Below, in pieces: positions 7,691 to 18,181 of a stretch of 21,100 bases of DNA. The stretch lies in the IMG/VR virus record IMGVR_UViG_3300047457_000327, positions 1-21,100 of that record. One strand, given 5' to 3'. The stretch is from a virus. Both the position numbers and the translations under genes were made by a program. The notes below the pieces were generated by a model. The model had not been told where the DNA came from, did no database searches, and was given only the letters and a program-made list of their open reading frames with translations. Each line of letters starts with the position of its first letter. The stretch's first letter is position 1.

Positions 7691-8380
7691 TTAGGACTGA
7701 CTGTACAGAGCATCGGCGAGGTCATTGAACGAGCGCGGGCCGGCGGGCTTTGCCGCACCCTTCGTTCCCGTGACCATCCGATCCTCACTGATTGCCTTGC
7801 CTGCGCGGAACATGAACCGGATCACCTCCGGGTGGTTCCCCAGGCCAGACTCGTTGAGCAGCGAGCGGAGTTCGGTCGTTCCGAACGCATCGAGCGCCTT
7901 CTTCGCGACGGAAAGGTTCTCCGACAGCTTCTCGCCGCCGAACTCCTTGTCGCCCTTGGATGAGTCGGCCCATCCCGTGCGAATCGCCTCGATCTGCGCC
8001 ATCTGACGCTCGGCCATCTTGGGGGCCATTGCGTCGAGGACGCGCTGCGCGGCCTCCTGCGACAGGTTGAGTTCGCGGGCGACCTCGGAGTACGTGGTCA
8101 GGACCTCGGCATCGAACTGCTTGCCTTCGGGAACCTTGAACTCGTACTTCTCCGGCGCGGCCTGCGGCTTGGCTTCCGCCTTCGCCTCGGTTGCCGGCTG
8201 ATCGCCCGCGACGGTTTCCGCAGCGGCCGTCGTTGCGGCTTGCGGCTCCTGGGTCGCGGTGGGCTTCTGCCCGTCCCCGTAGAGCTTCGCGGCCGTCGCC
8301 GCTGCGCCTTCAGGGGCCGAAGATGACGGGGCGGCATTAGTGGTCGTTGCTGCCGCTTCCACCATCGATGGTTCGTTCAT
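7691..8380 (-). CDS. Capsid scaffolding protein
   Basis: 229 aa, acidic. The first 80 residues are low-complexity Ala/Thr/Pro/Glu, presumably disordered. They are followed by Lys-Tyr-Glu-Phe-Lys-Val-Pro-Glu-Gly and a long helical region (residues 95-200), then a short Arg/Lys-rich C-terminal part. This layout, position immediately before the major capsid gene, and length are typical of podovirus scaffolds. The ATG at 8380 has AAGGAG upstream and overlaps the end of the Bbp19-like gene by 44 bases in another frame. The function follows from position and composition; scaffolds share little sequence. Confidence 0.82.
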   Translation of the reverse strand: MNEPSMVEAAATTTNAAPSSSAPEGAAATAAKLYGDGQKPTATQEPQAATTAAAETVAGDQPATEAKAEAKPQAAPEKYEFKVPEGKQFDAEVLTTYSEVARELNLSQEAAQRVLDAMAPKMAERQMAQIEAIRTGWADSSKGDKEFGGEKLSENLSVAKKALDAFGTTELRSLLNESGLGNHPEVIRFMFRAGKAISEDRMVTGTKGAAKPAGPRSFNDLADALYSQS

Positions 8381-8684
8381 TCGTGTTCTCCTTCATCATC
8401 ACGGGATACAGCTCTGGACACTGGGCATGGACGATGGCGAGCATCCGAAGCCCGTAGTTCCTGTTCCCCTCGGCGAAGGCCATTGCCATCGCGTTGGTGT
8501 TGAACGACGAGCGGAAGATGCCGGCAGCGTCGAGGAGCCGCCAGATGACCCTGCGGCCCCTCTTGTTGCCCATGAGCCACTTGACGTCGCCCTCCTCGTT
8601 ATCGCGGTCCAGTCGTTCGCGTAGGTCGCGCTGCGCCTTCGCCTTCTCCTGGCCCCGCAGGTCGAGCGGGTCATAGTTGCTCAC
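8337..8684 (-). CDS. Bbp19 family protein
   Basis: 115 aa starting at a GTG (8684) with AGGA seven to eight bases upstream; no in-frame ATG is better placed. The core segment with Arg-Val-Ile-Trp-Arg-Leu-Leu-Asp-Ala-Ala-Gly-Ile-Phe-Arg-Ser-Ser-Phe, followed by Glu-Gly-Asn-Arg-Asn-Tyr-Gly-Leu, is the signature of the Bbp19 family, found in the head module of BPP-1-like phages next to scaffold genes. Its biochemical role is unknown. The 3' end overlaps the scaffold start by 44 bases, so the two are probably translationally linked. Confidence 0.82.
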   Translation of the reverse strand: MSNYDPLDLRGQEKAKAQRDLRERLDRDNEEGDVKWLMGNKRGRRVIWRLLDAAGIFRSSFNTNAMAMAFAEGNRNYGLRMLAIVHAQCPELYPVMMKENTNERTIDGGSGSNDH

Positions 8685-8699
8685 GATGCCATCCTATCA

Positions 8700-8717
8700 A
8701 ATGCGATGTTTCGCATT
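8700..8717. repeat. Short perfect inverted repeat between staple-like and Bbp19 genes
   Basis: AATGCGA (8700-8706) and TCGCATT (8711-8717) form a perfect 7-bp stem with a 4-base loop in the 40-bp gap upstream of the GTG start at 8684. There is no T-tract on either side, so it is not an obvious terminator. It could be an RNA processing or stability hairpin in the late mRNA, or chance. Confidence 0.45.
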
Positions 8718-8724
8718 GCGAAGA

Positions 8725-9036
8725 TCATCCGCCGTACAGCATCGTCGCCGCCGCGCCGAAGTTGCCGGCTCCGCCGATCTCCATGTCGGTGATCTGGAAC
8801 TCGACCTTCTTCTCGGTTCCGCCTGCGGTCTGCTCCGCGCCGGCCGACTTGACATATGCACGGGCCGTGATCGTCACGACGCTGCCGATGGCCGGCGGCG
8901 AGGTGATACGCAGCTTCTCGAGTTCATCCGACTCCAGCTCAAGGCAAAGCCCCTCCGGGTACATCGGCTCGTCCATCTCGACCTGACCAGGCATTTCCTC
9001 GCGCTCGGGTTCGCGCTTCATCGAAATCATCGCCAT
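8725..9036 (-). CDS. Capsid staple-like protein
   Basis: 103 aa. The ATG at 9036 has AAAGGA upstream and lies 11 bases after the portal stop. The protein starts with a short basic Met-Lys-Arg motif, then Tyr-Pro-Glu-Gly-Leu-Cys-Leu-Glu-Leu, Asp-Glu-Leu-Glu-Lys-Leu, an Ile-Gly-Ser-Val-Val-Thr-Ile-Thr-Ala-Arg-Ala-Tyr-Val strand pair and a closing Glu-Phe-Gln-Ile-Thr-Asp-Met-Glu-Ile. This pattern (MKR start, 'P.GL.L.L..DELEKL', 'QITDMEI' near the end) matches proteins annotated as capsid staple proteins in podoviruses. The name rests on remembered family pattern and on position between portal and scaffold. Confidence 0.72.
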   Translation of the reverse strand: MAMISMKREPEREEMPGQVEMDEPMYPEGLCLELESDELEKLRITSPPAIGSVVTITARAYVKSAGAEQTAGGTEKKVEFQITDMEIGGAGNFGAAATMLYGG

Positions 9037-9047
9037 GTGGTGTCCTT

Positions 9048-10760
9048 TCAGACTTCGACGGCTGACGGCGAGCCGTAGCCGCTGAACATGTTCATCACGT
9101 CGGTCAGGGCGTTGTTGCCGCCGGTCGGTGCCTGCGCCATGTTCTTGACAGTCTGCGACTGCTGCTGCATCGCCGCCGCCTGTTCCTTCGCGGCCATCGC
9201 CTGGTTGCGGGCCTGCCGCACCATCGCGACCTCCTTGTCGGCCACGATCAGGGACGGGTCCACGCCGAGCATGTCGGCGTAGATGTCTGCCCACTGGTCG
9301 CTGTCGAACTTGTCGAGGATGTCTGGCTTCATCTGCGCGATGGCGCCGAGGTTGCCGACGAACCTGTCAACGGCGTTCGTGCCGATGGCGCGCTGGGCCT
9401 GCGCCAGCATGGACACGAACTCGACGTTCAGGTCCATGCCCTGCAGCTCCGGCGGCGCCGGCGGGATCACGCCGGACTGGATCATGCGGTTGAACGTGAT
9501 GTCAATGAGCGGGTCGAGCAGCTCGTTGTGCAGGCGCTCGAGGACGGGGCCGAGCATGAGGAGCTTCTCCTCGTGGCGCTCGGCGACCTCGGTTGCCGTC
9601 ATGCGGGTGTTCGGCGCGGTCGCCAGCATCAGGAACAAGTCGGCGTAGAACGCACCGCTCACGCGGCCGCGGCAGTCCTGGATGTCCTGCAGCAGGTAGT
9701 CGAGCCGCAGGTTGACGTCGAACGCGCTGCGGATGCCGTTGCCGGCGGGGTCAACGTAGGTGATGCCGCCAGGAAGCGAATCCACGTCCCTGTTCTTCAT
9801 GGACGCAGGCACCTGCAGCGGCGGCTTGGTCTGGTAGTCGATGGCCTGCGCCTTGCGGAGCTGCTCGTGCTGGAGTTGCTTGATGTCGCCGAGCGCCTCC
9901 ATGCCTGGGCTGTTGCCGTAGATGTCGCCGCCGACCACCGACCAGCGCGGGCAGAGAGCCGGGAAGTACATGAACCCGCTCTCGCGCAGGAACTTGTCCT
10001 GCTCGCCGCCGACTTCGAAGTACCACGACCCGTAGGGCATGTTGCGGTCATCGCGCTTCGTGATGTCGCGGTCGAGGCGCGGCTCGATGGCATGCACCAC
10101 CGGAACCCACTGGTCGAGCGTCCCGGTGTCGTACATGTTCTGCACTGACGTCGAGCAGTTCTCGTAGCCGAACTCCTTGACGATCTGCGACACGGTCATC
10201 TCGAACTCGCGGTACAGCGTGCAGACGCGGCCCTGCGCGTCGGTCGATATGCAGTACTCGCCGGCGGTCAGCGGATAATGGTGGATGACCTGGTCGAAGT
10301 CCGGCAGGATGATGCTCGCGGCCGTCCCGAACGCGCCGAGTTCCTCGTACATCAGGTGCAGGGAGCGATAGGTGTTCGACTTCTGGAACACGCGCTGCAT
10401 GCGCTTGGTGACGTCATCGAGCCACAGCTTGACGGGCTGGTACGAGTTCAGCTCCGGGTCCGGCGTGGCAAGGCGGAACCACTGGCGTGCTGGCGACGTG
10501 GCACCGGACATCAGGCCGGCGCCGAGGGTGCGGAGCGCACGGGTGCCGGTGTTGTCGTAGATGTTGTTGTGCCGGCGGTAGCCGCGGTTGCGGTCCTCGC
10601 GGAAGTAGCGGCCGTTGCGCGGGAGGAGGTAGGAGGTGATCTCCTGCCAGTGCGCCATCCACGATGCGCGCTCGCTCTTGAGCTGGCCCCAGCGCGTGAA
10701 CAGGCGATCCCGCGTGGGAGCGTCCGGGTAGGAACGGTTGTCGCCTGTGTATTCGCTCAT
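9048..10760 (-). CDS. Portal protein (T7-type head-tail connector)
   Basis: 570 aa, normal for T7-like connectors. The first 120 residues hold the typical N-terminal pattern: Trp-Met-Ala-His-Trp-Gln-Glu-Ile-Thr-Ser-Tyr-Leu-Leu-Pro-Arg, Tyr-Asp-Asn-Thr-Gly and Leu-Gly-Ala-Gly-Leu-Met-Ser-Gly. It carries the family's Tyr-Glu-Glu-Leu-Gly-Ala-Phe-Gly-Thr-Ala near residue 145 and a long C-terminal helical, Ala/Gln-rich tail. Twelve copies should form the ring at one capsid vertex that the terminase docks on and the tail attaches to. The ATG at 10760 is 1 base after the preceding stop, with a G-rich tract six bases upstream. Confidence 0.92.
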   Translation of the reverse strand: MSEYTGDNRSYPDAPTRDRLFTRWGQLKSERASWMAHWQEITSYLLPRNGRYFREDRNRGYRRHNNIYDNTGTRALRTLGAGLMSGATSPARQWFRLATPDPELNSYQPVKLWLDDVTKRMQRVFQKSNTYRSLHLMYEELGAFGTAASIILPDFDQVIHHYPLTAGEYCISTDAQGRVCTLYREFEMTVSQIVKEFGYENCSTSVQNMYDTGTLDQWVPVVHAIEPRLDRDITKRDDRNMPYGSWYFEVGGEQDKFLRESGFMYFPALCPRWSVVGGDIYGNSPGMEALGDIKQLQHEQLRKAQAIDYQTKPPLQVPASMKNRDVDSLPGGITYVDPAGNGIRSAFDVNLRLDYLLQDIQDCRGRVSGAFYADLFLMLATAPNTRMTATEVAERHEEKLLMLGPVLERLHNELLDPLIDITFNRMIQSGVIPPAPPELQGMDLNVEFVSMLAQAQRAIGTNAVDRFVGNLGAIAQMKPDILDKFDSDQWADIYADMLGVDPSLIVADKEVAMVRQARNQAMAAKEQAAAMQQQSQTVKNMAQAPTGGNNALTDVMNMFSGYGSPSAVEV

Positions 10761-10761
10761 G

Positions 10762-11151
10762 TCAGCCCCCGAGGAGGGTGGATCGTCCGAGGTTCAGGTC
10801 CTGGGGATTGACGCCCATCGGCCCGGTGAGCATGGTGCTGCTCGGGCCAGTCGCGGCTTCCTGCGCCCCGGCCATGATGGCCTGCACGTTGGGTTCGCGG
10901 CGCTGCGCGCCTGCGATGGCCTGCTCGCTTCTGCGCTGCTGCATCGCCGCCTGCGCGACCTGCTGCTGCTGCATCTGCGCCTGCTGGCGCATGGCTTGCT
11001 CCTGCGCCTTCTTCCCGGCCTCACCGCTCGAGATCGTGTAACCGAGTCCTGCGCCGGTGGCCGCGAGGCCGGCCGTGGCAAGCGCACCAACAGTCCCTGC
11101 CGCTGCCGCCGATGCACCAAGAGCGGTGCCGAGTGCTGCGAAGAATGGCAT
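10762..11151 (-). CDS. Ala/Gln-rich small protein with N-terminal hydrophobic segment
   Basis: 129 aa. Residues 3-40 are strongly hydrophobic and Ala/Gly-rich, long enough to cross a membrane or form a glycine-zipper helix. Residues 45-85 are a Gln/Arg/Ala helix, with runs of Gln, that could form a coiled coil. The C-terminus is short and Gly/Pro-rich. The ATG at 11151 directly follows the TAG of the acetyltransferase gene and has GGGAGG four to five bases upstream. Comparable small proteins lie beside portal genes in related podoviruses, but I know no function. A minor virion or ejected membrane protein is possible. Confidence 0.75.
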   Translation of the reverse strand: MPFFAALGTALGASAAAAGTVGALATAGLAATGAGLGYTISSGEAGKKAQEQAMRQQAQMQQQQVAQAAMQQRRSEQAIAGAQRREPNVQAIMAGAQEAATGPSSTMLTGPMGVNPQDLNLGRSTLLGG

Positions 11152-11601
11152 CTAGCCTCCCTTGACGTAGGTCATCTCGCTCGGCTCGTACCCGAGCTTT
11201 CGCAGCATCCTACCAACCTGCTCCCCGTTCTCCGCGACCAGTTGCGACATCGCGATGACGTGCGCGCCGTTGGCGTGCGCGAACTCGTGGAAGGCATGCA
11301 CCAGCCGCACCGCCGCGCTCGAGCCGCGTGCCTCCTCGTCCACCCACCATGCCAGCTCGTGCGCGACCAGGACGTGCGGCGCGAACCACATGGGGCTGAC
11401 GGCGCAGGCAAGCATGCCGACCGTCCTGCCGTCGCTCTCGGCGAGCAGGATCACGCCGGCCTGCATGAACGCCGCCACGCCGGAACGGAGCTGCGCCCGG
11501 TCGGCATTGACGTACTTGCCGTGCGGGCCGAACGCGATGAACCGTTCGCCCATGTCAAGGATCGCCTCGAGGTCCTCGGACGTTGCTGGCCTGATGTTCA
11601 T
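11152..11601 (-). CDS. GNAT-family N-acetyltransferase
   Basis: 149 aa, a minimal single GNAT domain. It begins MNIRPATSEDLEAILDMGER, the usual beta1-alpha1 start. A central beta4-like strand is followed by Trp-Trp-Val-Asp-Glu-Glu-Ala-Arg-Gly-Ser-Ser-Ala-Ala, which fits the pyrophosphate-binding turn of motif A (R-G-x-x-A). The end, Gly-Arg-Met-Leu-Arg-Lys-Leu-Gly-Tyr-Glu then Tyr-Val-Lys-Gly, fits the family C-terminus. It would transfer acetyl from acetyl-CoA; the acceptor is unknown. The ATG at 11601 overlaps the terminase stop as ATGA and has GAGGA seven bases upstream. A longer frame from 11886 only overlaps terminase and is not used. Modification of a host or virion protein is an inference. 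Confidence 0.85.
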   Translation of the reverse strand: MNIRPATSEDLEAILDMGERFIAFGPHGKYVNADRAQLRSGVAAFMQAGVILLAESDGRTVGMLACAVSPMWFAPHVLVAHELAWWVDEEARGSSAAVRLVHAFHEFAHANGAHVIAMSQLVAENGEQVGRMLRKLGYEPSEMTYVKGG

Positions 11602-12932
11602 CGCATGTCCTCGTATGGGTCGTAGTCGCGCTTGTCCGGGATGAGCCGCTCCCGCACCTCTCGAGGCAATTGCTTGGCGACCGGATACGAGAACGTCAAC
11701 GCAAGGGCGTCGGCGATGTCCGGGCTTCCGCCGCCCTGCAGGCGCTTCTTGATGTCCTCCTTCGACTCGAGGCACCGCTTGCCGACCGCGTCGTACCAGT
11801 ACGTCGGCGTTGACAGTTCGGTGACGAGGTCGGTGCGATCCGGCAGGACGCCGCCCATCTCGAGCCACTCCTTGACGCTCCACCACATCTCCGTCCGCTT
11901 GTTGACGAACAGGTTCGGGTTCGTGGCCTTGCCACCGAACGGCACCTCGATCACGTCGTAGCCGAGTTGGCGCAGTCGGTCGATGACGCCGGCGCCCGCG
12001 CCGCTGTCAATGAACACGGCGTCCGGGTCGCGTTCCTCGATGACGTTGGCGACGGCCGAGGCCAGCGTCATGTTGTCAATCCCGGTGTAAATCATCGGCG
12101 GCTCCATGCGGAGTCCCTGGCGCAGGACGATGACGCTGCGGTCATCCCCGAACCGTGCCGGGTCCACGCCGATGACGAGCGGGAACTCGATGACGTCGCC
12201 GTCCGCGATCTTGCGCTCGCTCGCGGCGGTGGCGTCGGTGAGGCTGATGAGCTGGTCCTCGCCGGCGGCGGCGAAGTCGCAGAGATACTCGCGGGCGAAC
12301 GCCTGCTCGGGCATGTCGCGCTTCAGGCGGGCGACCTCGTCCTCGTCCAGGGCGTCCGTGTCGTGGACGGTGTATCGCGCCGCCCACCAGTCCGGGAGGC
12401 TCGAGGCGCGGTAGAACAGCTCGCTGAACAGGTTCAGGCCGTTCGGGGTGCCGATGAAGAGCGCCCACCCCTTGCGGTCGGACAGGGCTGGCTGGAGGAT
12501 GTCGTTCCAGACCTCGGGCTTGATCTGCGCCACCTCGTCAATGACGCAGCCGTCAAGGCGCACGCCGCGGAGGGCGTCCGGGTTGTCGCCGCCAAACAGG
12601 CGGATCTGCGCCCCGTTGTGCTTGAACGTGATGGACAGGTCGGCCTCGTTGACATCTACCCCGCCGGCGACGATGAGGTCGTTTATCTTCTGCTTCAGGC
12701 GCAGCCACGCGATGGCCTTGGCCTGCTTCAGGAACGGCGCGACGTACACGAAGAACGGCAACGTGTGCTTGCACCCTGCCGCCCCGTGGATGAGCTGCAT
12801 GATGGCGAGTTCCGTCTTGCCGGCGCGGCGGTGGAGCGCGAGGACGGTAAACCGCCGCTTGCGCTGGTGGCATTCGCTCTGCCACGGGCGCGGGCGGTAG
12901 GCGACCTCAATCTCCTTGTGGATCAGGGACAT
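11598..12932 (-). CDS. terL: Terminase large subunit (ATPase and nuclease)
   Basis: 444 aa from the ATG at 12932. The motor domain shows Walker A HRRAGKTE (residues 34-41), Walker B with Ile-Asp-Glu at 131-133 and the coupling segment FIGTPNG (159-165). The RNase H-like nuclease domain shows GVDPARFGDD (Asp257), Ala-Val-Phe-Ile-Asp (Asp309) and Pro-Asp-Ile-Ala-Asp-Ala-Leu (Asp408), the three metal-binding acids. It cuts concatemeric phage DNA and pumps it into the prohead through the portal. The frame is open up to a TTG at 12971, but no ribosome site precedes that codon. The ATG overlaps the small-subunit gene by 26 bases, so translation is probably coupled. Confidence 0.95.
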   Translation of the reverse strand: MSLIHKEIEVAYRPRPWQSECHQRKRRFTVLALHRRAGKTELAIMQLIHGAAGCKHTLPFFVYVAPFLKQAKAIAWLRLKQKINDLIVAGGVDVNEADLSITFKHNGAQIRLFGGDNPDALRGVRLDGCVIDEVAQIKPEVWNDILQPALSDRKGWALFIGTPNGLNLFSELFYRASSLPDWWAARYTVHDTDALDEDEVARLKRDMPEQAFAREYLCDFAAAGEDQLISLTDATAASERKIADGDVIEFPLVIGVDPARFGDDRSVIVLRQGLRMEPPMIYTGIDNMTLASAVANVIEERDPDAVFIDSGAGAGVIDRLRQLGYDVIEVPFGGKATNPNLFVNKRTEMWWSVKEWLEMGGVLPDRTDLVTELSTPTYWYDAVGKRCLESKEDIKKRLQGGGSPDIADALALTFSYPVAKQLPREVRERLIPDKRDYDPYEDMR

Positions 12933-13317
12933 TGGTCTTGAGGACGATGTTGACACCGCCGGAATGGTCAAGCTGCTGCCGGTCGCCGTACTTGCGCGGG
13001 TTCCACTTGGCGAGGAGCTTCAGGATGGTGTCAACCTGCAACCTGCGCTGGGTCACCTCGACTTGGTCGTTGCACGGGTCGAACGCGATCCGCATTGCCT
13101 TCTCCGCGAGTTCGTCGTATCCGTCCTCGCGTGCGCGTGCGATGCGTGCCGAGAATTGCGGATCTTTGTCCATCCAATGGTAAACCGTGCGCCATTCCGG
13201 GTGTCCGGGCTGTCGGCACCATTCCCGGAGGGGCTTGCCATCGGAGATCCATGCCACCAGGCTGTCTGCGTGGTGTGCCGGGACGGGTTCCGGTGGGCGT
13301 CCGGGCTTGCGCGTCAC
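12907..13317 (-). CDS. terS: Terminase small subunit (Sf6-type)
   Basis: 136 aa from a GTG at 13317 that overlaps the stop of the 49-aa gene as GTGA. The open frame continues upstream to 13506, but that part lies on top of the 49-aa gene. The N-terminal part (Trp-Ile-Ser-Asp-Gly-Lys-Pro-Leu-Arg-Glu-Trp-Cys then Val-Tyr-His-Trp-Met) fits a DNA-binding helix-turn-helix. A central helical segment with Ala-Arg-Glu-Asp-Gly-Tyr-Asp-Glu-Leu-Ala and the end RLQVDTILKLLAKWNPRKYG are typical of Sf6-like small subunits, which form rings that recognise the packaging site and hand DNA to the large subunit. AGGA sits very close to the GTG, so coupling is likely. Confidence 0.88.
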   Translation of the reverse strand: MTRKPGRPPEPVPAHHADSLVAWISDGKPLREWCRQPGHPEWRTVYHWMDKDPQFSARIARAREDGYDELAEKAMRIAFDPCNDQVEVTQRRLQVDTILKLLAKWNPRKYGDRQQLDHSGGVNIVLKTNVPDPQGD

Positions 13318-13463
13318 TTCCTGCGGCGCTTCGCCGCCCTTGCCTTGTCGGCCCGGACGAACTTCTTTGCCACGGACATTGGCACGCCGACCTTCTTTGC
13401 GAAGGCGCGATTGTGTGCTGCGGCCTGCATGAGGCGCTTCTGCGCCGGCGACTTGCTTGGCAT
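13314..13463 (-). CDS. Small basic conserved phage protein (49 aa)
   Basis: 49 aa, from an ATG at 13463 with AAGGAA about eight bases upstream. The sequence starts MPSKSPAQKRLMQAAAHNRA, continues Phe-Ala-Lys-Lys-Val-Gly-Val-Pro, then Val-Ala-Lys-Lys-Phe-Val-Arg-Ala-Asp-Lys, and ends in a Lys/Arg-rich tail. This 'MPSKS..Q.RLM.AAAHN..FAKKVG.P.SV...F..AD' pattern is one I remember from many tailed phages, always unnamed. It is highly basic and may bind nucleic acid. It starts 3 bases after the HTH gene and ends in a GTGA overlap with terS. Confidence 0.82.
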   Translation of the reverse strand: MPSKSPAQKRLMQAAAHNRAFAKKVGVPMSVAKKFVRADKARAAKRRRK

Positions 13464-13465
13464 GG

Positions 13466-13720
13466 TCAGTTCCTTGGGGTGAGCGTGAGGTCGAATCCTG
13501 CGGCATGTGCGATCTTCAGGATGGAGTCGAATGCGGGTTTCCGGCGACCGATGACGGTCCCGGGCGAGCCGAGGAGGCTCTTGACGGTATGTGCGCGGAG
13601 GATGCCGCGTCGGTCCATGTCGTTGGCAAGCGCGGAGCGGGTGCTTCCCTTGCTTGCCACGGCCTCGGTGATGGCCTTCTTGAAATCGTCGTAACAGCGG
13701 ATCTGCATACGCTCGAGCAT
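13466..13720 (-). CDS. Small helix-turn-helix-like regulator or antitoxin-like protein
   Basis: 84 aa. The middle (Thr-Arg-Ser-Ala-Leu-Ala-Asn-Asp-Met then His-Thr-Val-Lys-Ser-Leu-Leu) and the closing Ile-Leu-Lys-Ile-Ala-His-Ala-Ala-Gly-Phe-Asp-Leu-Thr-Leu resemble the Xre/Cro fold, in which the last helices and strand read 'l.kia.alG..l.l'. It would bind DNA as a small dimer. The ATG at 13720 follows the previous stop by 1 base; Met5 (13708), with GAG upstream, is an alternative start. Co-transcription with a 93-aa protein resembles antitoxin or repressor cassettes, but no toxin family is recognised next to it. The HTH assignment is by eye. Confidence 0.65.
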   Translation of the reverse strand: MLERMQIRCYDDFKKAITEAVASKGSTRSALANDMDRRGILRAHTVKSLLGSPGTVIGRRKPAFDSILKIAHAAGFDLTLTPRN

Positions 13721-13721
13721 A

Positions 13722-14003
13722 TCACTCGGAATTGACGATCTCTCCGAAATCCTCGGATGTTGCTGCCCAGACGATGCGAGGGGTTCCGGGTCCGAGGTAG
13801 TTGAGTTCGATGCGGTCGGTGACGAAGGCGAGCGCCTCGGCCTGGGTCATGGATTCCTGGTCGCGTATGCGTGCTGCGATCATGTCGCCGGAGTAGAGCG
13901 CGACGGGGATTCCTTCCTCGTTGGGGAGCGGGTAGACCTTGCCGAGGAGGCAATCGTCCAGCCCAGCGAGGAGGATTGGCAGGGACTTCCTGCGCTTCGC
14001 CAT
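13722..14003 (-). CDS. Conserved hypothetical protein (93 aa)
   Basis: 93 aa from an ATG at 14003, starting with a basic Met-Ala-Lys-Arg-Arg-Lys-Ser. No ribosome site precedes this ATG. Instead a TAGACT sequence ends 7 bases upstream, so the mRNA may be leaderless. The part from residue 35 on (Ala-Leu-Tyr-Ser-Gly-Asp-Met-Ile, Met-Thr-Gln-Ala-Glu-Ala-Leu-Ala-Phe, Leu-Gly-Pro-Gly-Thr-Pro) fits a small protein family I remember from phages and plasmids, with the pattern 'vY....i......gMs.eeA.e.....N....y.G.gTP'. No function is known to me. It is the first gene after the terminator at 14024-14056. Confidence 0.75.
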   Translation of the reverse strand: MAKRRKSLPILLAGLDDCLLGKVYPLPNEEGIPVALYSGDMIAARIRDQESMTQAEALAFVTDRIELNYLGPGTPRIVWAATSEDFGEIVNSE

Positions 14004-14023
14004 GTGTGGAAGTCTACAAAGCA

Positions 14024-14056
14024 AGACCCCGCAAGCATGATTTGCTCACGGGGTCT
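14024..14056 (-). terminator. Strong hairpin terminator after the 193-aa gene
   Basis: AGACCCCG and CGGGGTCT (in the plus-strand reading AGACCCCGC...CGGGGTCT, ends at 14024 and 14056) give an 8-bp outer stem. It is extended by six further pairs, two of them G-U, around a 5-base loop. On the minus strand the hairpin is followed by TGCTTTGT, a moderate T-tract. It lies 20 bases beyond the stop of the 193-aa gene and 20 bases before the next start. The plus-strand side lacks T residues. Confidence 0.65.
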
Positions 14057-14076
14057 GCGAATGTCGTGCGTGTCGG

Positions 14077-14658
14077 TCAGCCGGGTTCTCGTTCCGGGTC
14101 GGGCGGGTTGTGCTGCGTCTGCGAGATCACCCAATTCCTGAAATCGTCGTACTGCCGGCGCAGGTTCCTGCGTTCGTCGGACCATTCCTTGGTGTCAAAG
14201 TCCTCGACCTTGTCGTGCCACTTCTGCATGAGCGTCTTGGAATGCACGACCGCGTCGTTGACGGCTTCGTGCTGTGTGACTTCGAGGACGATTCGAAACT
14301 GCGGAGTCCCGTCCTTGTTGACGCCGTGCCACCACCAGTACTCGTTCTCCTCCGGGTCCATCAGCTCGATGTGGGGGGCCATGCGTTCGGGGAGAATCTC
14401 GACGCGAACGCCGAACTCGAGCGTGTCGCACTCAATCGCGCCCATGCGCGAGTTCCAGCGGAACGCGACGGTCCCGGGCCACTTGGCGTTCCATGTGTCA
14501 ATCAGCAGCTCCGGCGTGATTCTGTTCCCGTGGCACAGGCCGAAATTAATGCGCGACGACAGGACGGAAGCGTTGTCCTCGCACCACTTCTCGAAGCCCG
14601 GGATGTCAAGCGTCATCGTGCTTGGCGTTTCGTCGCGCCATGCAATCACGTACCACAT
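14077..14658 (-). CDS. Hypothetical protein (193 aa)
   Basis: 193 aa. The ATG at 14658 has AGGAG six bases upstream, a strong site that rules out the longer frame from 14694. The protein is rich in Trp, Glu and Asp. It begins MWYVIAWRDETPS, has a central region with Trp-Trp-Trp-His-Gly-Val-Asn-Lys-Asp-Gly, and ends in a charged helical region with many Lys/Arg/Asp, then a Pro/Glu tail. No family is recognised. It lies between a minus-strand promoter candidate (14713-14741) and a strong terminator, so it is probably its own short transcription unit or ends a two-gene one with the 150-aa gene. Confidence 0.75.
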   Translation of the reverse strand: MWYVIAWRDETPSTMTLDIPGFEKWCEDNASVLSSRINFGLCHGNRITPELLIDTWNAKWPGTVAFRWNSRMGAIECDTLEFGVRVEILPERMAPHIELMDPEENEYWWWHGVNKDGTPQFRIVLEVTQHEAVNDAVVHSKTLMQKWHDKVEDFDTKEWSDERRNLRRQYDDFRNWVISQTQHNPPDPEREPG

Positions 14659-14712
14659 GCGATCTCCTCTCGTTCGGCGTGTCAATGGCAGCACCGCGCC
14701 GCCACTTCGTGA

Positions 14713-14741
14713 ATCGTATACGGGTCAGTAGGCGCGGTCAA
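14713..14741 (-). promoter_or_regulatory. Sigma70-like promoter ahead of the 193-aa gene
   Basis: On the minus strand TTGACC (14741-14736) is followed after 17 bases by TACGAT (14718-14713). An alternative -10, TATACG, lies 15 bases away. The start point would be near 14706, giving a leader of about 48 nt with a strong ribosome site. The promoter lies over the 3' end of the preceding gene. Confidence 0.5.
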
Positions 14742-15177
14742 CGGGGTTCTGCCGGCACCATTCGACCATAAGCGCGACGATGCGCGGCTGCTTCGGGTGC
14801 ATCCCCAGCCGTTCCTTCGCTGCTGCGATCTCCTGCGGCGTCGCGGTCACGAGGATTCGCTTGGCGTCCTCGTCCCATTCCGCGAGTTCCTGCTGCGACG
14901 GGCCTTGCACGAACTCGGCGCGTGTGCGGGTGACCTCGCGCTGGGCGTCCTCGTTCCATTGCCCGCCGGTGATCTTGCAGTACTGCTTGTGGATCGCGCT
15001 GATGTCCGGCGACGAGTCGCGCTCGAGGCGATGCTGCTCGATGCACTCACGCAGCTTGTCCTGGTGCAGTTGCCCCCACTTCTTGTCAATCAATCGCGAA
15101 AGTGACGGCTCGAGTCGCCACTTCGGCCACAGCTCGCCCATCAGCGCACGGTTGTCCTGCCAAGTGATCTGGTCCAT
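14725..15177 (-). CDS. Hypothetical protein (150 aa), possibly from a leaderless mRNA
   Basis: 150 aa. It is highly charged with many Trp, Gln and Glu, and probably mostly helical. Segments such as Leu-Trp-Pro-Lys-Trp, Trp-Gly-Gln-Leu-His-Gln-Asp-Lys-Leu and Ile-His-Lys-Gln-Tyr-Cys-Lys-Ile-Thr-Gly are visible, but no family is recognised. There is no ribosome site before the ATG at 15177. A near-consensus promoter (15185-15212) ends 7 bases upstream, placing the transcript start at or next to the ATG. It is the first gene of the leftward block. A role in early or delayed-early functions is possible but unsupported. Confidence 0.72.
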   Translation of the reverse strand: MDQITWQDNRALMGELWPKWRLEPSLSRLIDKKWGQLHQDKLRECIEQHRLERDSSPDISAIHKQYCKITGGQWNEDAQREVTRTRAEFVQGPSQQELAEWDEDAKRILVTATPQEIAAAKERLGMHPKQPRIVALMVEWCRQNPVDRAY

Positions 15178-15184
15178 TGACGGC

Positions 15185-15212
15185 AGTATACGCCGCCGTA
15201 ATCATCGGTCAA
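15185..15212 (-). promoter_or_regulatory. Sigma70-like promoter with start point at the ATG of the 150-aa gene
   Basis: On the minus strand TTGACC (15212-15207), a 16-base spacer and TATACT (15190-15185) match the consensus in 5/6 and 5/6 positions. Seven bases separate the -10 from the ATG at 15177, which puts +1 at about the A of that ATG. Confidence 0.62.
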
Positions 15213-15323
15213 TGGGCTTGGCGCGAAGGTCGGCCGGGACAGACGGTCGGAAAGGTTGGCGGGCGGGTTGTTCATCAGGATCAGGTTCGATCCGCACAGC
15301 CGCCGGCAGGGCTTTCAGTTCGC

Positions 15324-15419
15324 ATGGTGAGCGCGGAGGGACGGTGACCCCACGAGGGGGCCACGATCAACCAGCCCGCACGGAGCCGCGCTTTCGGTCG
15401 ATGCCACGATTCTCACCAT
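15324..15419. other. Nested inverted repeats in the large intergenic region
   Basis: ATGGTGAG (15324-15331) is perfectly matched by CTCACCAT (15412-15419). Inside it GCGCGG (15331-15336) is matched by CCGCGC (15386-15391). Inside that CCCC-ACGA-GGGG (15348-15359) forms a hairpin closed further by GTG/CAC. A separate hairpin with arms CGCAGGG (15474-15480) and CCCTGCG (15493-15499) follows. The region lies between two divergent promoters and is not inside either predicted transcript. It could be a folded RNA from an upstream start, a packaging or origin site, or chance in GC-rich DNA. Confidence 0.4.
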
Positions 15420-15546
15420 TTCGCTGGAGGACTGCCAGCCGCCGCCGTCGTGGAGGAGCGCACCTTTCGGTGGCGCAGGGTAGGGTCTGGTTCCCTGCGT
15501 CTACATCCATGCTCCCCTACCGCGCCGGGAGCGTCTTGCGGCATTG

Positions 15547-15574
15547 TTGCCCCTGGGGGCAGGTTCGCTACAAT
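15547..15574 (+). promoter_or_regulatory. Rightward promoter for a candidate small RNA
   Basis: TTGCCC (15547-15552), a 16-base spacer and TACAAT (15569-15574, 5/6 match) give a plausible sigma70 promoter. An overlapping TTGTTG at 15544 would give 19 bases. The predicted start is near 15581, where the first stem of the candidate RNA begins. Confidence 0.5.
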
Positions 15575-15580
15575 GCGAGC

Positions 15581-15675
15581 GCGATTGGATTAGCAGCCCG
15601 CAGCATAGCGACCAAATCGCCGTGCGACGGGAAACTTTGCAGGCGACCGCAAGTTCTCTTGCGGTCGTTCTGTTT
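15581..15675 (+). ncRNA. Candidate phage small RNA (about 95 nt)
   Basis: The stretch between the promoter at 15547-15574 and the terminator at 15644-15667 has no start codon with a ribosome site and no reading frame of note. Its 5' end can fold: GCGATTGG (15581-15588) pairs with CCAAATCGC (15612-15620) with a single bulged A. A single-stranded linker of about 23 nt follows, then the terminator stem and its T-rich tail. Promoter, 5' stem beginning at the predicted +1, linker and intrinsic terminator is the layout of a trans-acting small RNA. No known RNA family is recognised. This is inference from sequence only. Confidence 0.45.
15644..15675 (+). terminator. Intrinsic terminator of the candidate small RNA
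   Basis: A perfect 10-bp stem (CGACCGCAAG, 15644-15653, with CTTGCGGTCG, 15658-15667) has a TTCT loop and is followed by TTCTGTTT on the plus strand. The minus-strand side is not T-rich, so it acts rightward. Confidence 0.75.
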
Positions 15676-15687
15676 CCTCGCTACATT
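15659..15687 (+). promoter_or_regulatory. Second rightward promoter overlapping the terminator
   Basis: TTGCGG (15659-15664, inside the 3' arm of the terminator stem), a 17-base spacer and TACATT (15682-15687) form a weaker sigma70-like promoter. The -10 context CTCGCTACATTGCC resembles TTCGCTACAATGCG at the first promoter. It would start near 15694. Confidence 0.35.
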
Positions 15688-15711
15688 GCCAACGCAACAA
15701 GCCCCCGGAAC

Positions 15712-15751
15712 GCGCCCCGCGTCGATCAGCCGATCCGCGGGGCGTTTCTTT
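15712..15751 (+). terminator. Second rightward intrinsic terminator
   Basis: CGCCCC-type arm at 15713-15721 pairs with CGCGGGGCG at 15736-15744 (9 bp). A small inner GATC/GATC pairing is possible, and TTTCTTT follows at 15745-15751. It ends any transcript from the second promoter after about 58 nt, and also read-through from the first. The 209 bases from here to the next gene at 15961 show no further element I can support. Confidence 0.65.
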
Positions 15752-15960
15752 GTGCCACACTTGTCCGCACATGTAGCACCTTCGCTCCGTGGAGCAGCAC
15801 GCGGCTTCGCCGGCGTCTGCCCCCTGGCGGCATGCTGTTGCTGCACCAATGGTTGCGCTGCCGGCGGGCGTACCTCGCGGCCTTCTGCGCCGGCCCATGC
15901 GGGTGTTTGGCCTCCGACTGCCGCAGCCCCGCGCCTCCGCACCACTAGGATACCGCGACG

Positions 15961-16530
15961 ATGCCTCGCCACGCCAATCTCCCGTTTCACCTCTACGTCC
16001 ATGTCAACAACGCCGCGCTCGGGCCGACGATGCCAGCCGGCACGACGCGAGCCATCTGGCATGCCGTCTACTGCCGGCCCGGGCAGATCGTCATGGCGCA
16101 CGTCCTGCTCGAGACAGGCGCGGAGTGGTGCGGCGTTCCCCTGCACATGATCGCGTCAGGCCCGGATGCGTTCCGCGCCAAACCGCTCGGAGATCCCGAT
16201 GCTCCCGGCGACCTCCAGCCTTGGGGCGCGATGGGTGACTGCATAGAGGCGGTGCATATGCACTACCTCGAGGGGATGATGGCGACAGGCAGCGGCAAGG
16301 GACCGGGCTTCTGCGGCACCCACACGGGGATCGTCATCGACTGGTCGGACGGCTTCTCGCGCTACCCGCAGGAACACAAGCCGCTCAACCTCATCGAGCG
16401 CAGCGACGGGAAGTACCTGCTGTATCCCAACAACTACGTCCGGCTGCTGGACAAGCACTTCACGAACTGGAAGAAGTACGATCAGCTCCAGCACTACCGC
16501 CGCGGCGACCGCGTGTATTGGGAAGTTTAG
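15961..16530 (+). CDS. Conserved phage protein of unknown function (189 aa)
   Basis: 189 aa, rich in His, Trp, Tyr and Gly. Notable segments are Ala-Ile-Trp-His-Ala-Val-Tyr-Cys-Arg-Pro-Gly, His-Val-Leu-Leu-Glu-Thr-Gly-Ala-Glu-Trp-Cys-Gly-Val-Pro-Leu-His, Trp-Gly-Ala-Met-Gly-Asp, and ASP-type Asp-Gly-Phe-Ser-Arg-Tyr-Pro with His-Lys-Pro-Leu-Asn-Leu. I remember similar strings (WSGLPLHAL, DGFSRYP.QHKPL, PNNR) in unnamed proteins of other podoviruses, so it is probably a conserved family, but this is recall, not a search. The ATG at 15961 has AGGA about 10 bases upstream. It is the only gene in its orientation here and its stop overlaps the stop of the convergent gene by 3 bases. Confidence 0.8.
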   Translation: MPRHANLPFHLYVHVNNAALGPTMPAGTTRAIWHAVYCRPGQIVMAHVLLETGAEWCGVPLHMIASGPDAFRAKPLGDPDAPGDLQPWGAMGDCIEAVHMHYLEGMMATGSGKGPGFCGTHTGIVIDWSDGFSRYPQEHKPLNLIERSDGKYLLYPNNYVRLLDKHFTNWKKYDQLQHYRRGDRVYWEV

Positions 16531-16793
16531 GTTCCACTTCTGCGATATCCGAGCCGCCAGAGCAGCCTCGAGAGATCGCGTGCCGTGGCATCGACTGCCT
16601 GCTCGTCCAGCTCCGGCCGCGAGCAATGCAGCGCCTCGTGGATCACGGTGTCGAGCGTGTCCTGCTCGCCCTGCCATGTGCCGATGCGGATGATCCGCGA
16701 ATCCGCGGTGCCGCCATCCTGCATCGAACCGAAGTCCTTCAGGTTGCCGGAGAACCGAAGCGACCAGTATCGGTTGCCGAGTCGTACCCGCAT
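16527..16793 (-). CDS. Very small HExxH (zinc-metalloprotease-like) protein
   Basis: 88 aa. HEALH at residues 52-56 gives the zinc-binding HExxH pair, and Leu-Asp-Glu-Gln-Ala-Val (Glu64) could supply the third ligand as in gluzincin-like or SprT-like folds. It ends with a helix Arg-Leu-Leu-Trp-Arg-Leu-Gly-Tyr-Arg-Arg. The N-terminal half is two or three beta strands. Similar mini-proteins with a 'HE.LH....LDE..V...A.....LLWRLG.R' pattern occur in phages. At 88 aa it holds only the bare catalytic core, so actual protease activity is uncertain. The ATG at 16793 has AGGAGG four bases upstream. It is the last gene of the leftward four-gene operon. Confidence 0.82.
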   Translation of the reverse strand: MRVRLGNRYWSLRFSGNLKDFGSMQDGGTADSRIIRIGTWQGEQDTLDTVIHEALHCSRPELDEQAVDATARDLSRLLWRLGYRRSGT

Positions 16794-16815
16794 CTGGCCT
16801 CCTGGGAAGGACAGA

Positions 16816-16947
16816 TCACTTGAACCCGCGCTTCATCGCCTTCCACGCAGACGCGCTGACCGTGGACTTCGACTTCGGGCGGCTGGTTCCTGCAGCTCGA
16901 CGTGCGTTGATGTTCGCGTACAGGCCGCGTGCCTTCTTCTTCGCCAT
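16816..16947 (-). CDS. Small basic conserved protein (43 aa)
   Basis: 43 aa from an ATG at 16947 with GAGGAA seven bases upstream; a longer frame from 17292 only overlaps the upstream gene. It starts MAKKKARGLYANINARRAAG, continues Thr-Ser-Arg-Pro-Lys-Ser-Lys-Ser-Thr-Val and ends Trp-Lys-Ala-Met-Lys-Arg-Gly-Phe-Lys. It is extremely basic. The pattern 'MAKK.RGLY.NI.A.R.AG' is one I remember from many phage and bacterial short proteins without function. Nucleic acid binding is plausible from charge. It begins 2 bases after the stop of the 88-aa gene. Confidence 0.8.
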   Translation of the reverse strand: MAKKKARGLYANINARRAAGTSRPKSKSTVSASAWKAMKRGFK

Positions 16948-16949
16948 GT

Positions 16950-17216
16950 TTACTTCCTCGAGGTCTTGCCGCTGCACTTCCACTTCGCACGGGAGAGCCG
17001 CAGCGGGCTGTTGGGATTGCGCGCCGCGGCGGGGTGCGACTTCATCTGCGCGAACGAACGGGCGCAGTACGCATCGCCCTTCGCGGTCCCGGGCTTGATG
17101 CGGTCGCCGCCGCCCTTCGCCTTGCCGGCCTGACCGTAGGACACGGTGTTCTGCCTCCCGGTCTTGGGGTTGCGGACCACCTTCACGAATCGCTTGCCCT
17201 TCGCTGGCGTCGGCAT
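16950..17216 (-). CDS. Basic conserved phage protein (88 aa)
   Basis: 88 aa from an ATG at 17216 with AGGAG six bases upstream. It contains Val-Val-Arg-Asn-Pro-Lys-Thr-Gly-Arg, then Gly-Gln-Ala-Gly-Lys-Ala-Lys, Ile-Lys-Pro-Gly-Thr-Ala-Lys-Gly-Asp-Ala-Tyr-Cys-Ala-Arg-Ser, and Asn-Ser-Pro-Leu-Arg-Leu-Ser-Arg-Ala-Lys-Trp-Lys-Cys-Ser-Gly-Lys. This 'V.NP.TG...TV.YG..GKA..GG.RI.PGT.KGD.YCARS....NSPN.LSR.KWKC.GK' layout is known to me from many phages, without function. Two Cys residues and the basic character are conserved features in that recall. It follows the phosphoesterase by 8 bases. Confidence 0.82.
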   Translation of the reverse strand: MPTPAKGKRFVKVVRNPKTGRQNTVSYGQAGKAKGGGDRIKPGTAKGDAYCARSFAQMKSHPAAARNPNSPLRLSRAKWKCSGKTSRK

Positions 17217-17224
17217 CGTTGCTC

Positions 17225-18181
17225 CTAGTCGGCCATGATGAACTGCGGGACGAGGCCGTAGCGTGTTCGGCCTTCCGCGCTTCGCTTCTCAAGATACAGG
17301 CGCATCCAGATGCCGCCGCCCGATTCTCCCGGTGGCATGCCCTTCATCACTTCCCATCCACCGTACCCGTCGCCGTAGGCATCCTTGTAACTCCCGGTGC
17401 AACAGTGCCACTGGTAGTCCTGCACGATCCGTGTTCCGCCTCGGTCGCAGACCAGGCGTTCTCGATTGATCGGCACGATCCACCTCTTGTGGATGTGGCC
17501 CGTGCATACGACGTCAGCGTCAGGCATGATGGCGGCGTGCCGGCGAACAGACAGCGTTCCATGCGACATCAATGGTGCGCCACCGGCACCGTGGAAGTAC
17601 TTCAGCGCAAGTCCGTATCTCTCGCCGTTGATTCGCGTCCAGAACCTCACCCAACCTCCGTATCCGCCGGGATACACCTTGTGGCCGGACAGCATCGACA
17701 TGCGTTCGCAAACTCGCTCGGTGTAGTCCGTGTCGCAGTTCTTGAGGACGCTGTCCTCGTGGTTTCCCCTTCCGATCACCACGAAGTTCCGCGCATACGG
17801 AGCGTAGAACTCCGATGCGTGGCGGATCACGCTGTCGAGGTAGTCGGGCGCGTCCATGTGTTCCTCGCGCACTCCCTTGCGGGCGCGCCGTGGATCGTGC
17901 CGTCCCTCCATCAAGCAGCCCTGGTCACCCAGGTCAAGTATCCCGGCGCGCTTGGCGACTGCCTCCTCGAGGTGCTTCAGCTCCTGGTCGTGTCTTGCAT
18001 GCGGGTTGTCGTGGTGTCGGTCGCTCGAGAGAAGGAACCACCACTCGTTCGTTCGGCTCGTGCCGAGCAGTTCGACGGTGTGGATGTTGCGCGCTTCCTT
18101 CGTGACCGTCCACGGAAGCGGCGCACTGCCCCCGCGCTGCGGGATGAGCTTGGGTGCGGCTGGCTTGGCCGTCTTGGTCAT
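17225..18181 (-). CDS. Calcineurin-like metallophosphoesterase
   Basis: 318 aa from the ATG at 18181; the frame stays open to 18358, but that part covers the divergent promoter region and has no ribosome site. All motifs of the two-metal phosphoesterase fold are present: Ser-Asp-Arg-His-His-Asp-Asn (Asp54, His56), Leu-Gly-Asp-Gln-Gly (Asp86), Gly-Arg-Gly-Asn-His-Glu (Asn140, His141), His197 in Tyr-Phe-His-Gly and the final Thr-Gly-His-Ile-His (His229, His231). It should hydrolyse a phosphomono- or diester; the substrate is unknown (nucleotides, cyclic nucleotides and DNA ends are all possible). It heads a leftward operon with two basic small proteins and the HExxH protein. Confidence 0.9.
   Translation of the reverse strand: MTKTAKPAAPKLIPQRGGSAPLPWTVTKEARNIHTVELLGTSRTNEWWFLLSSDRHHDNPHARHDQELKHLEEAVAKRAGILDLGDQGCLMEGRHDPRRARKGVREEHMDAPDYLDSVIRHASEFYAPYARNFVVIGRGNHEDSVLKNCDTDYTERVCERMSMLSGHKVYPGGYGGWVRFWTRINGERYGLALKYFHGAGGAPLMSHGTLSVRRHAAIMPDADVVCTGHIHKRWIVPINRERLVCDRGGTRIVQDYQWHCCTGSYKDAYGDGYGGWEVMKGMPPGESGGGIWMRLYLEKRSAEGRTRYGLVPQFIMAD

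Follow-up and report, generated by a model that had tools for sequence, protein, structure and literature searches.

A conserved noncoding two-RNA cassette as a candidate replication origin in place of initiator genes in podovirus-like phages

A noncoding cassette of about 365 bp, at positions 15313-15675 of the DNA stretch analyzed here (the window, an entire IMG/VR record of 21.1 kb from an uncultivated podovirus-like phage), comprises two predicted RNAs read from opposite strands: a small RNA on the plus strand at one end and a large structured RNA on the minus strand that accounts for the remainder. Computation on the window and its relatives yields conserved signals for both RNAs, a fold and a strand for the large RNA, and the replacement, at the same genomic site, of genes annotated as replication initiators. 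We consider it fairly probable (about 0.6) that this is an RNA-based replication-origin cassette that takes the place of an origin of the lambda O type.

The PHROGs matches in the window include portal, major head protein and the small terminase subunit, and the large terminase subunit is 66-68% identical to those of two genomes named "Podoviridae sp.". A minus-strand operon runs from the gene at 14725-15177 through to the terminase and virion genes, and the right-flank gene at 15961-16530 on the plus strand (PHROG 3704, named ferredoxin) served as the anchor for the site. All the sequences compared come from uncultivated phages, and several of the records are fragments; gene calls outside the family searches follow a simple rule of open reading frames and codon positions.

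A blastn search with the whole intergenic gap, with loci obtained both via the terminase and via the right-hand gene, shows that dozens of related phages share 15303-15675, with DNA identities of 82-90%; the remaining intergenic DNA, 15676-15790, is mostly variable in content and length among the relatives. Both halves of the cassette are present in all of the 122 loci that match either half, a number inflated by contigs that overlap or duplicate one another (the distinct copies gathered number 53), and there are no weak matches elsewhere. The small RNA, which the first-pass annotation described as a self-contained unit, therefore does not stand alone but is always joined to the larger structured RNA of the opposite strand. 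Outside viral contigs, no homologs of the cassette were detected in plasmids, nor were any in INPHARED phages; a motif scan of genome contigs returned at least 80 stretches, with no true homolog among the matches listed, and none turned up in 399 genomes of a single bacterial order, selected arbitrarily through the Aquabacterium terrae record. Likewise, the window and 7 other loci produced 0 matches to Rfam 15 at gathering thresholds, and a permissive Rfam scan of 15200-15800 gave chance-level matches only. One copy, L003 (match at 7693-8069), retains both ends of the cassette around ~110 nt of unrelated middle, corresponding to ~15398-15510 of the window, and may be a damaged cassette or one in which a domain has been swapped; it was excluded from the covariation analysis.

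The large RNA is predicted from covariation as a molecule of ~284 nt on the minus strand, 15596-15313, with the 5' end (~15596) inferred from the promoter and a conserved 3' limit at ~15313. Its 11 helices are A (15541-47/15570-76), B (15548-52/15557-61), C (15511-16/15527-32), D (15474-80/15493-99), E (15462-64/15469-71, closing a GNRA loop, GAAA or GCAA, on the minus strand), F (15404-09/15448-53), G (15423-27/15435-39), H (15324-30/15413-19), I (15367-72/15396-401), J (15378-82/15387-91) and K (15344-51/15357-64). Among 26 close copies, 98.6% of the cells in 65 pairs are paired, and 16 pairs show double changes. Nine divergent records came from a motif scan, and they score 75-175 bits against a covariance model derived from the close copies. 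When divergent copies are included (24 copies in total), 96.5% of the cells are paired and double compensatory changes occur in 36 of the 58 pairs, counts that lean towards the model because this alignment was fitted to it. For both alignments, none of 500 column shuffles reached the observed values, and controls in which the structure was slid along the alignment gave 33-47% pairing (33-44% for the 26 close copies). With compensatory changes in excess of both the shuffled and the slid controls, the minus-strand element qualifies as a predicted structured noncoding RNA. Helix F is wholly rewritten in some copies with the pairing retained; helix H, which would form a pseudoknot with F, is nearly invariant, so that the F/H pseudoknot lies beyond the reach of a covariation test. 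The minus-strand RNA alone is no more stable than its shuffled versions (z -0.9), and the case for it accordingly rests on covariation rather than on energy.

The strand of the element is indicated by an asymmetry of the non-canonical cells: read on the minus strand, 109 are G.U and 49 are A.C, ~42 of the latter coming from two spurious pairs at helix edges. This asymmetry assigns 15313-15578 to the minus strand, on which the GNRA loops also appear. A plus-strand fold of the same segment was rejected given the A.C cells and a z-score weaker than that of the minus strand. Coding on the minus strand was rejected as well: there is a plausible stretch, GSGWQSSSEMVKFVAST, but indels of 1-2 nt break the frames among the relatives.

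The minus-strand RNA is preceded by a putative promoter at 15604-15630, with the -10 element TATGCT at 15604-15609. In the window itself the -35 element is degraded and the promoter is only the third-ranked site; in many relatives, it reads TTGCAT-16-TAT[G/C]AT. In 20 of the 24 copies, no sigma70-like site, or hardly any, scores better than the one at -21 to -24 from the model start, and in L341 and L344 the motif lies at -59 instead. This promoter overlaps the plus-strand promoter face to face, so that the two predicted RNAs should overlap by ~16 nt at their 5' ends. No intrinsic terminator was found on the minus strand within 220 nt in any of the 24 copies.

For the plus strand, the first-pass annotation had proposed a complete small-RNA unit at 15544-15675, and its two outer signals hold up under comparison. 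The promoter (15547-15574), TTGCCC at 15547-15552 and TACAAT at 15569-15574 separated by a 16-bp spacer, was located correctly, and the pattern TTGNNN-16/17-TANNNT recurs in 56 of 57 distinct copies of the region (as TCGNNN in one copy), with compensatory changes in the palindrome GCATTGT/ACAATGC at this promoter, the -10 of which coincides with part of helix A (3' arm) in the minus-strand RNA. The terminator (15642-15675), a perfect 10-bp stem, CGACCGCAAG/CTTGCGGTCG, at 15644-15653/15658-15667 followed by TTCTGTTT, is conserved too, with 97.7% of the cells paired and double changes in 6 of 9 pairs. An intrinsic terminator occurs no more than 115 nt after the plus-strand start in 21 of the 24 copies and at 161 nt in one more, hence in 22 of 24. 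The left limit at 15544 did not survive, nor did the 8-bp first stem, GCGATTGG (15581-15588) with CCAAATCGC (15612-15620): the letters are present, but the stem is missing from the minimum-energy fold of the window, and of the two stems proposed, only that of the terminator is preserved in relatives. Near this position, the conserved hairpin is a different one, GCANN-ATA...NNTGC at 15600-15627 on the plus strand, overlapping the minus-strand promoter, with 91.7% of the cells paired and double changes in 2 of 5 pairs. The small RNA (96 nt in this calculation) folds better than all of 200 dinucleotide shuffles (z -4.2). A conserved sigma70 promoter and an intrinsic terminator thus bracket an untranslated segment of ~95 nt, 15581-15675, and conservation together with compensatory changes supports the prediction of a discrete small RNA on the plus strand, started and ended by signals of its own.

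Several further signals lie immediately beyond this terminator. By eye, from the alignment and the sequence, a possible second plus-strand promoter, TTGCGG-17-TACATT, is seen at 15659-15687, with its -35 within the terminator stem; the versions in relatives read TTGCGG-16-TATAGT or TTGACA-16-TATCAT. A second terminator-like hairpin, CGCCCCGCG...CGCGGGGCG-TTTCTTTG, lies at 15713-15750 on the plus strand and is also found in cassette-free phages, for example, L083. A second small RNA at 15659-15752 on the plus strand of the window is therefore possible. The -10 region of the first promoter is repeated as an imperfect direct repeat (83%), TCGCTACAATGCGAGCGC at 15678-15695 and TCGCTACATTGCCAACGC at 15565-15582, at a distance of 113 bp; of the two, the second copy seems to be found in the window only.

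At most recognized phage origins, replication requires an initiator protein encoded by the phage. Cassette-free phages with the same flanking genes encode DUF1376 or HTH_36 proteins at the site. In PHROGs, the DUF1376 proteins are annotated as "primosomal protein" and the HTH_36 protein as "replication initiation O-like", and it is on this annotation that the designation of DUF1376 as an initiator is based. Among 109 distinct site sequences, which form 22 clusters by single linkage, the cassette is present in 75, a DUF1376 gene in 31 and an O-like gene in 3; none carries two of these and none is empty. The proportions of the alleles are biased, some loci having been found through the cassette, but this bias does not explain the missing "both" and "neither" classes. 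Iteron-like repeats occur inside 6 of the 7 initiator genes examined (the DUF1376 or O-like genes of L083, at 3445-4020, and of L115, L116, L102, L110 and L135), and none were found in the initiator gene of L097. These repeats are spaced 11-12 bp apart or consist of 7 copies of GGTGCATATCCTGCACC; the 12-bp types are CGGTCACCGTCA or GCCATTGGGGTC, and the 11-bp type is CATTGCG. The intragenic repeats suggest that DUF1376 is an initiator with the origin inside its own gene.

The exclusion extends to whole records. DUF1376 was detected in 0 of 17 cassette-bearing records (16 of 32-41 kb and the window) and in 0 of 9 divergent ones, that is, in 0 of 26 altogether, and it is present in all 7 cassette-free records of the DUF1376 type that were searched, the eighth cassette-free record having an HTH_36 gene. 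HTH_36 was likewise found in 0 of 17 cassette records and the O-like profile in 0 of 16. Family searches with selected early proteins identified recombination genes (RecT, Gam, RusA and an exonuclease) and no initiator. DnaB and Pol A were absent from the records tested, with or without the cassette, implying that these phages use the host machinery.

An RNA origin is the simplest explanation for a noncoding cassette that swaps with two kinds of initiator genes in phages otherwise devoid of a recognized initiator. Under this explanation, the host sigma70 RNA polymerase would make both RNAs from the overlapping, face-to-face promoters; the minus-strand RNA, of at least 284 nt, would fold into the conserved 11-helix structure, and the plus-strand RNA, of ~95 nt, would stop at its own terminator. 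The large RNA would then substitute for the initiator protein with intragenic iterons of the sister phages and would show host enzymes where to begin replication or prime it for them, possibly as the primer in an R-loop; competition or restraint would come from the small RNA and its promoter. These roles, RNA as origin, RNA as primer and the small RNA as its control, are our inferences. The lack of a terminator on the minus strand (24/24) and its presence on the plus strand (22/24) are what would be expected of a primer beside a discrete regulatory RNA, and negative control by the small RNA would suit the opposing promoter and a 5' end complementary to the large RNA.

The cassette could instead be accessory cargo of a variable locus, with the true origin elsewhere. 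One such possibility, which we regard as rather unlikely, is an autonomous trans-acting structured RNA, engaged in host takeover, counter-defense or gene control and accompanied by a small partner, for which the exclusion of initiators would be a by-product of the shared site. The cassette does move between neighborhoods, as cargo would, and phages are reported to carry large RNAs, such as GOLLD and ROOL, whose role is structural or unknown (PMC12286853); with these, the cassette RNA shares a conserved structure and occurrence in phages and metagenomes, but it is smaller, at ~284 nt, and matches no Rfam family at gathering thresholds. However, a trans-acting RNA would leave unexplained why an initiator-like gene is present at each site that lacks the cassette, with both or neither never found, or why the cassette phages have no recognized initiator, and the terminator expected of a discrete RNA is absent from the minus strand.

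Another alternative places the function at the DNA level, with the minus strand folding as single-stranded DNA, as a primosome or primase site or as single-strand promoters, with the conserved hairpins owing their preservation to that single-stranded role and with G.T pairs tolerated in the same way as G.U. The origin-like location would fit, as would the presence of both promoters in palindromes with covarying arms; yet the GNRA tetraloops (GAAA or GCAA) and a fold this large and complex are more like RNA, and a dedicated promoter reads into the element, making this version of an origin improbable.

The independence of the cassette from its neighbors bears on readings that tie it to adjacent genes. 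The first genes downstream of the minus-strand RNA differ among phages (MDQITW, WYVIAW and DDCLLG); in L336, the RNA and the MDQITW homolog converge, the RNA meeting the 3' end of that gene, and L334 and L337 show the same convergence with a large gene on the plus strand, while in L335 the cassette lies between the late and early modules. The fold is kept amid these different neighbors, including opposite orientation to a neighbor, which suggests that the cassette acts by itself. A cis-acting leader of the minus-strand operon, such as a riboswitch or an antiterminator of the put or EAR kind, is a natural thought in the window, where the RNA points into the operon starting at 14725-15177, but the differing neighborhoods and first genes, the orientations in L334, L336 and L337, where the RNA is convergent to gene 3' ends, and the absence of the RNA from sister phages with the same operon argue that it is not the leader of any one operon and render this reading highly improbable. 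The first-pass proposal of a regulator at the switch between early and late genes is not supported, given that the cassette occupies the place of an initiator gene and elsewhere lies at other module boundaries or in the opposite orientation to its neighbors. A packaging RNA akin to the phi29 pRNA, or another virion-assembly RNA, can be dismissed as scarcely credible: the RNA is a highly conserved phage RNA a few kb from the terminase genes in the window, but it is missing entirely from sister phages with 86-88% identical terminases (L083, L140 and L115), and the distance to the terminase is not conserved (~10 kb in G427).

The closest precedent for an RNA origin comes from cluster A mycobacteriophages (RedRock, Alma, Gladiator, LadyBird and Et2Brutus), in which a noncoding RNA region of ~600 bp takes the place of repA and autonomous replication depends on it, with no initiator gene elsewhere, at a module boundary downstream of the virion genes (PMC7157519). 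The cassette resembles these regions in that a noncoding RNA stands at the site where sister phages have their initiator gene, in the lack of an initiator gene elsewhere and in the position at a module boundary. It differs in that a fold supported by covariation is defined for it, along with a small partner RNA that ends at a terminator, and whereas the mycobacteriophage RNA origins act in prophage maintenance and adjoin parABS (PMC7157519), no par genes were noticed here. The RNA regions of RedRock and Alma show no sequence or structure match to the cassette model. The lambda-type O/ori modules (DUF1376 and HTH_36 O-like) share the genomic site with the cassette and are mutually exclusive with it, but they are protein-coding, mostly with intragenic iteron-like repeats, as in lambda O, and the cassette is noncoding.

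The organization of the cassette is also reminiscent of ColE1: two short untranslated RNAs with opposed promoters and no initiator protein, a structured large RNA without a terminator and a small RNA of ~100 nt with one. In ColE1, RNA I covers the first ~110 nt of RNA II, whereas the cassette RNAs would overlap by ~16 nt at their 5' ends, so that most of the large RNA has no antisense counterpart in the small one; complementarity over ~110 nt would require an unseen promoter beyond 15675. Homology to ColE1, an idea prompted by the motifs UCGGGCUGAAC...CACC-GAACUG, was rejected: sequence alignments of ColE1-like origins with the cassette scored within the range of dinucleotide shuffles, and the covariance model found no significant match in eight ColE1-like origins (best E 0.26 in 6.7 kb). 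By analogy, the cassette would work like the ColE1 and mycobacteriophage RNA origins, with no detectable relation to them in sequence.

A broader proposition, to which we give slightly less than even odds, is that the cassette represents a compact RNA-only initiator, a new family of ~284 nt that would be the sole starter of replication in whole podovirus lineages, repeatedly exchanged with two unrelated protein initiators and sharing no common descent with the ColE1 and mycobacteriophage RNA origins. If the RNA-origin explanation is correct, the cassette would be a second, independent example of an RNA replacing an initiator protein, after the mycobacteriophages, would give an origin RNA a defined covarying structure open to mutation, and would explain how phages with no recognizable initiator replicate. 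The ~365-bp unit would serve as a test construct for plasmid replication, and with the covariance model, further members of the family can be sought in viral metagenomes.

The gene at 14725-15177 on the minus strand (MDQITW...), the first of the operon, belongs to an unassigned family: homologs were found, and profile searches of Pfam, PHROGs and PDB gave no match. The protein, with the signature MDQITW...WPKW...HQDKLRxCIxQHRLER, is well conserved and adjoins both the cassette and the DUF1376 allele; its position makes a role as a helicase-loader-like partner possible. In the virion region, a single giant protein of ~3000 aa is encoded in G001 (3300043468_000395; 8586-17987) and in G017 (21660-30650).
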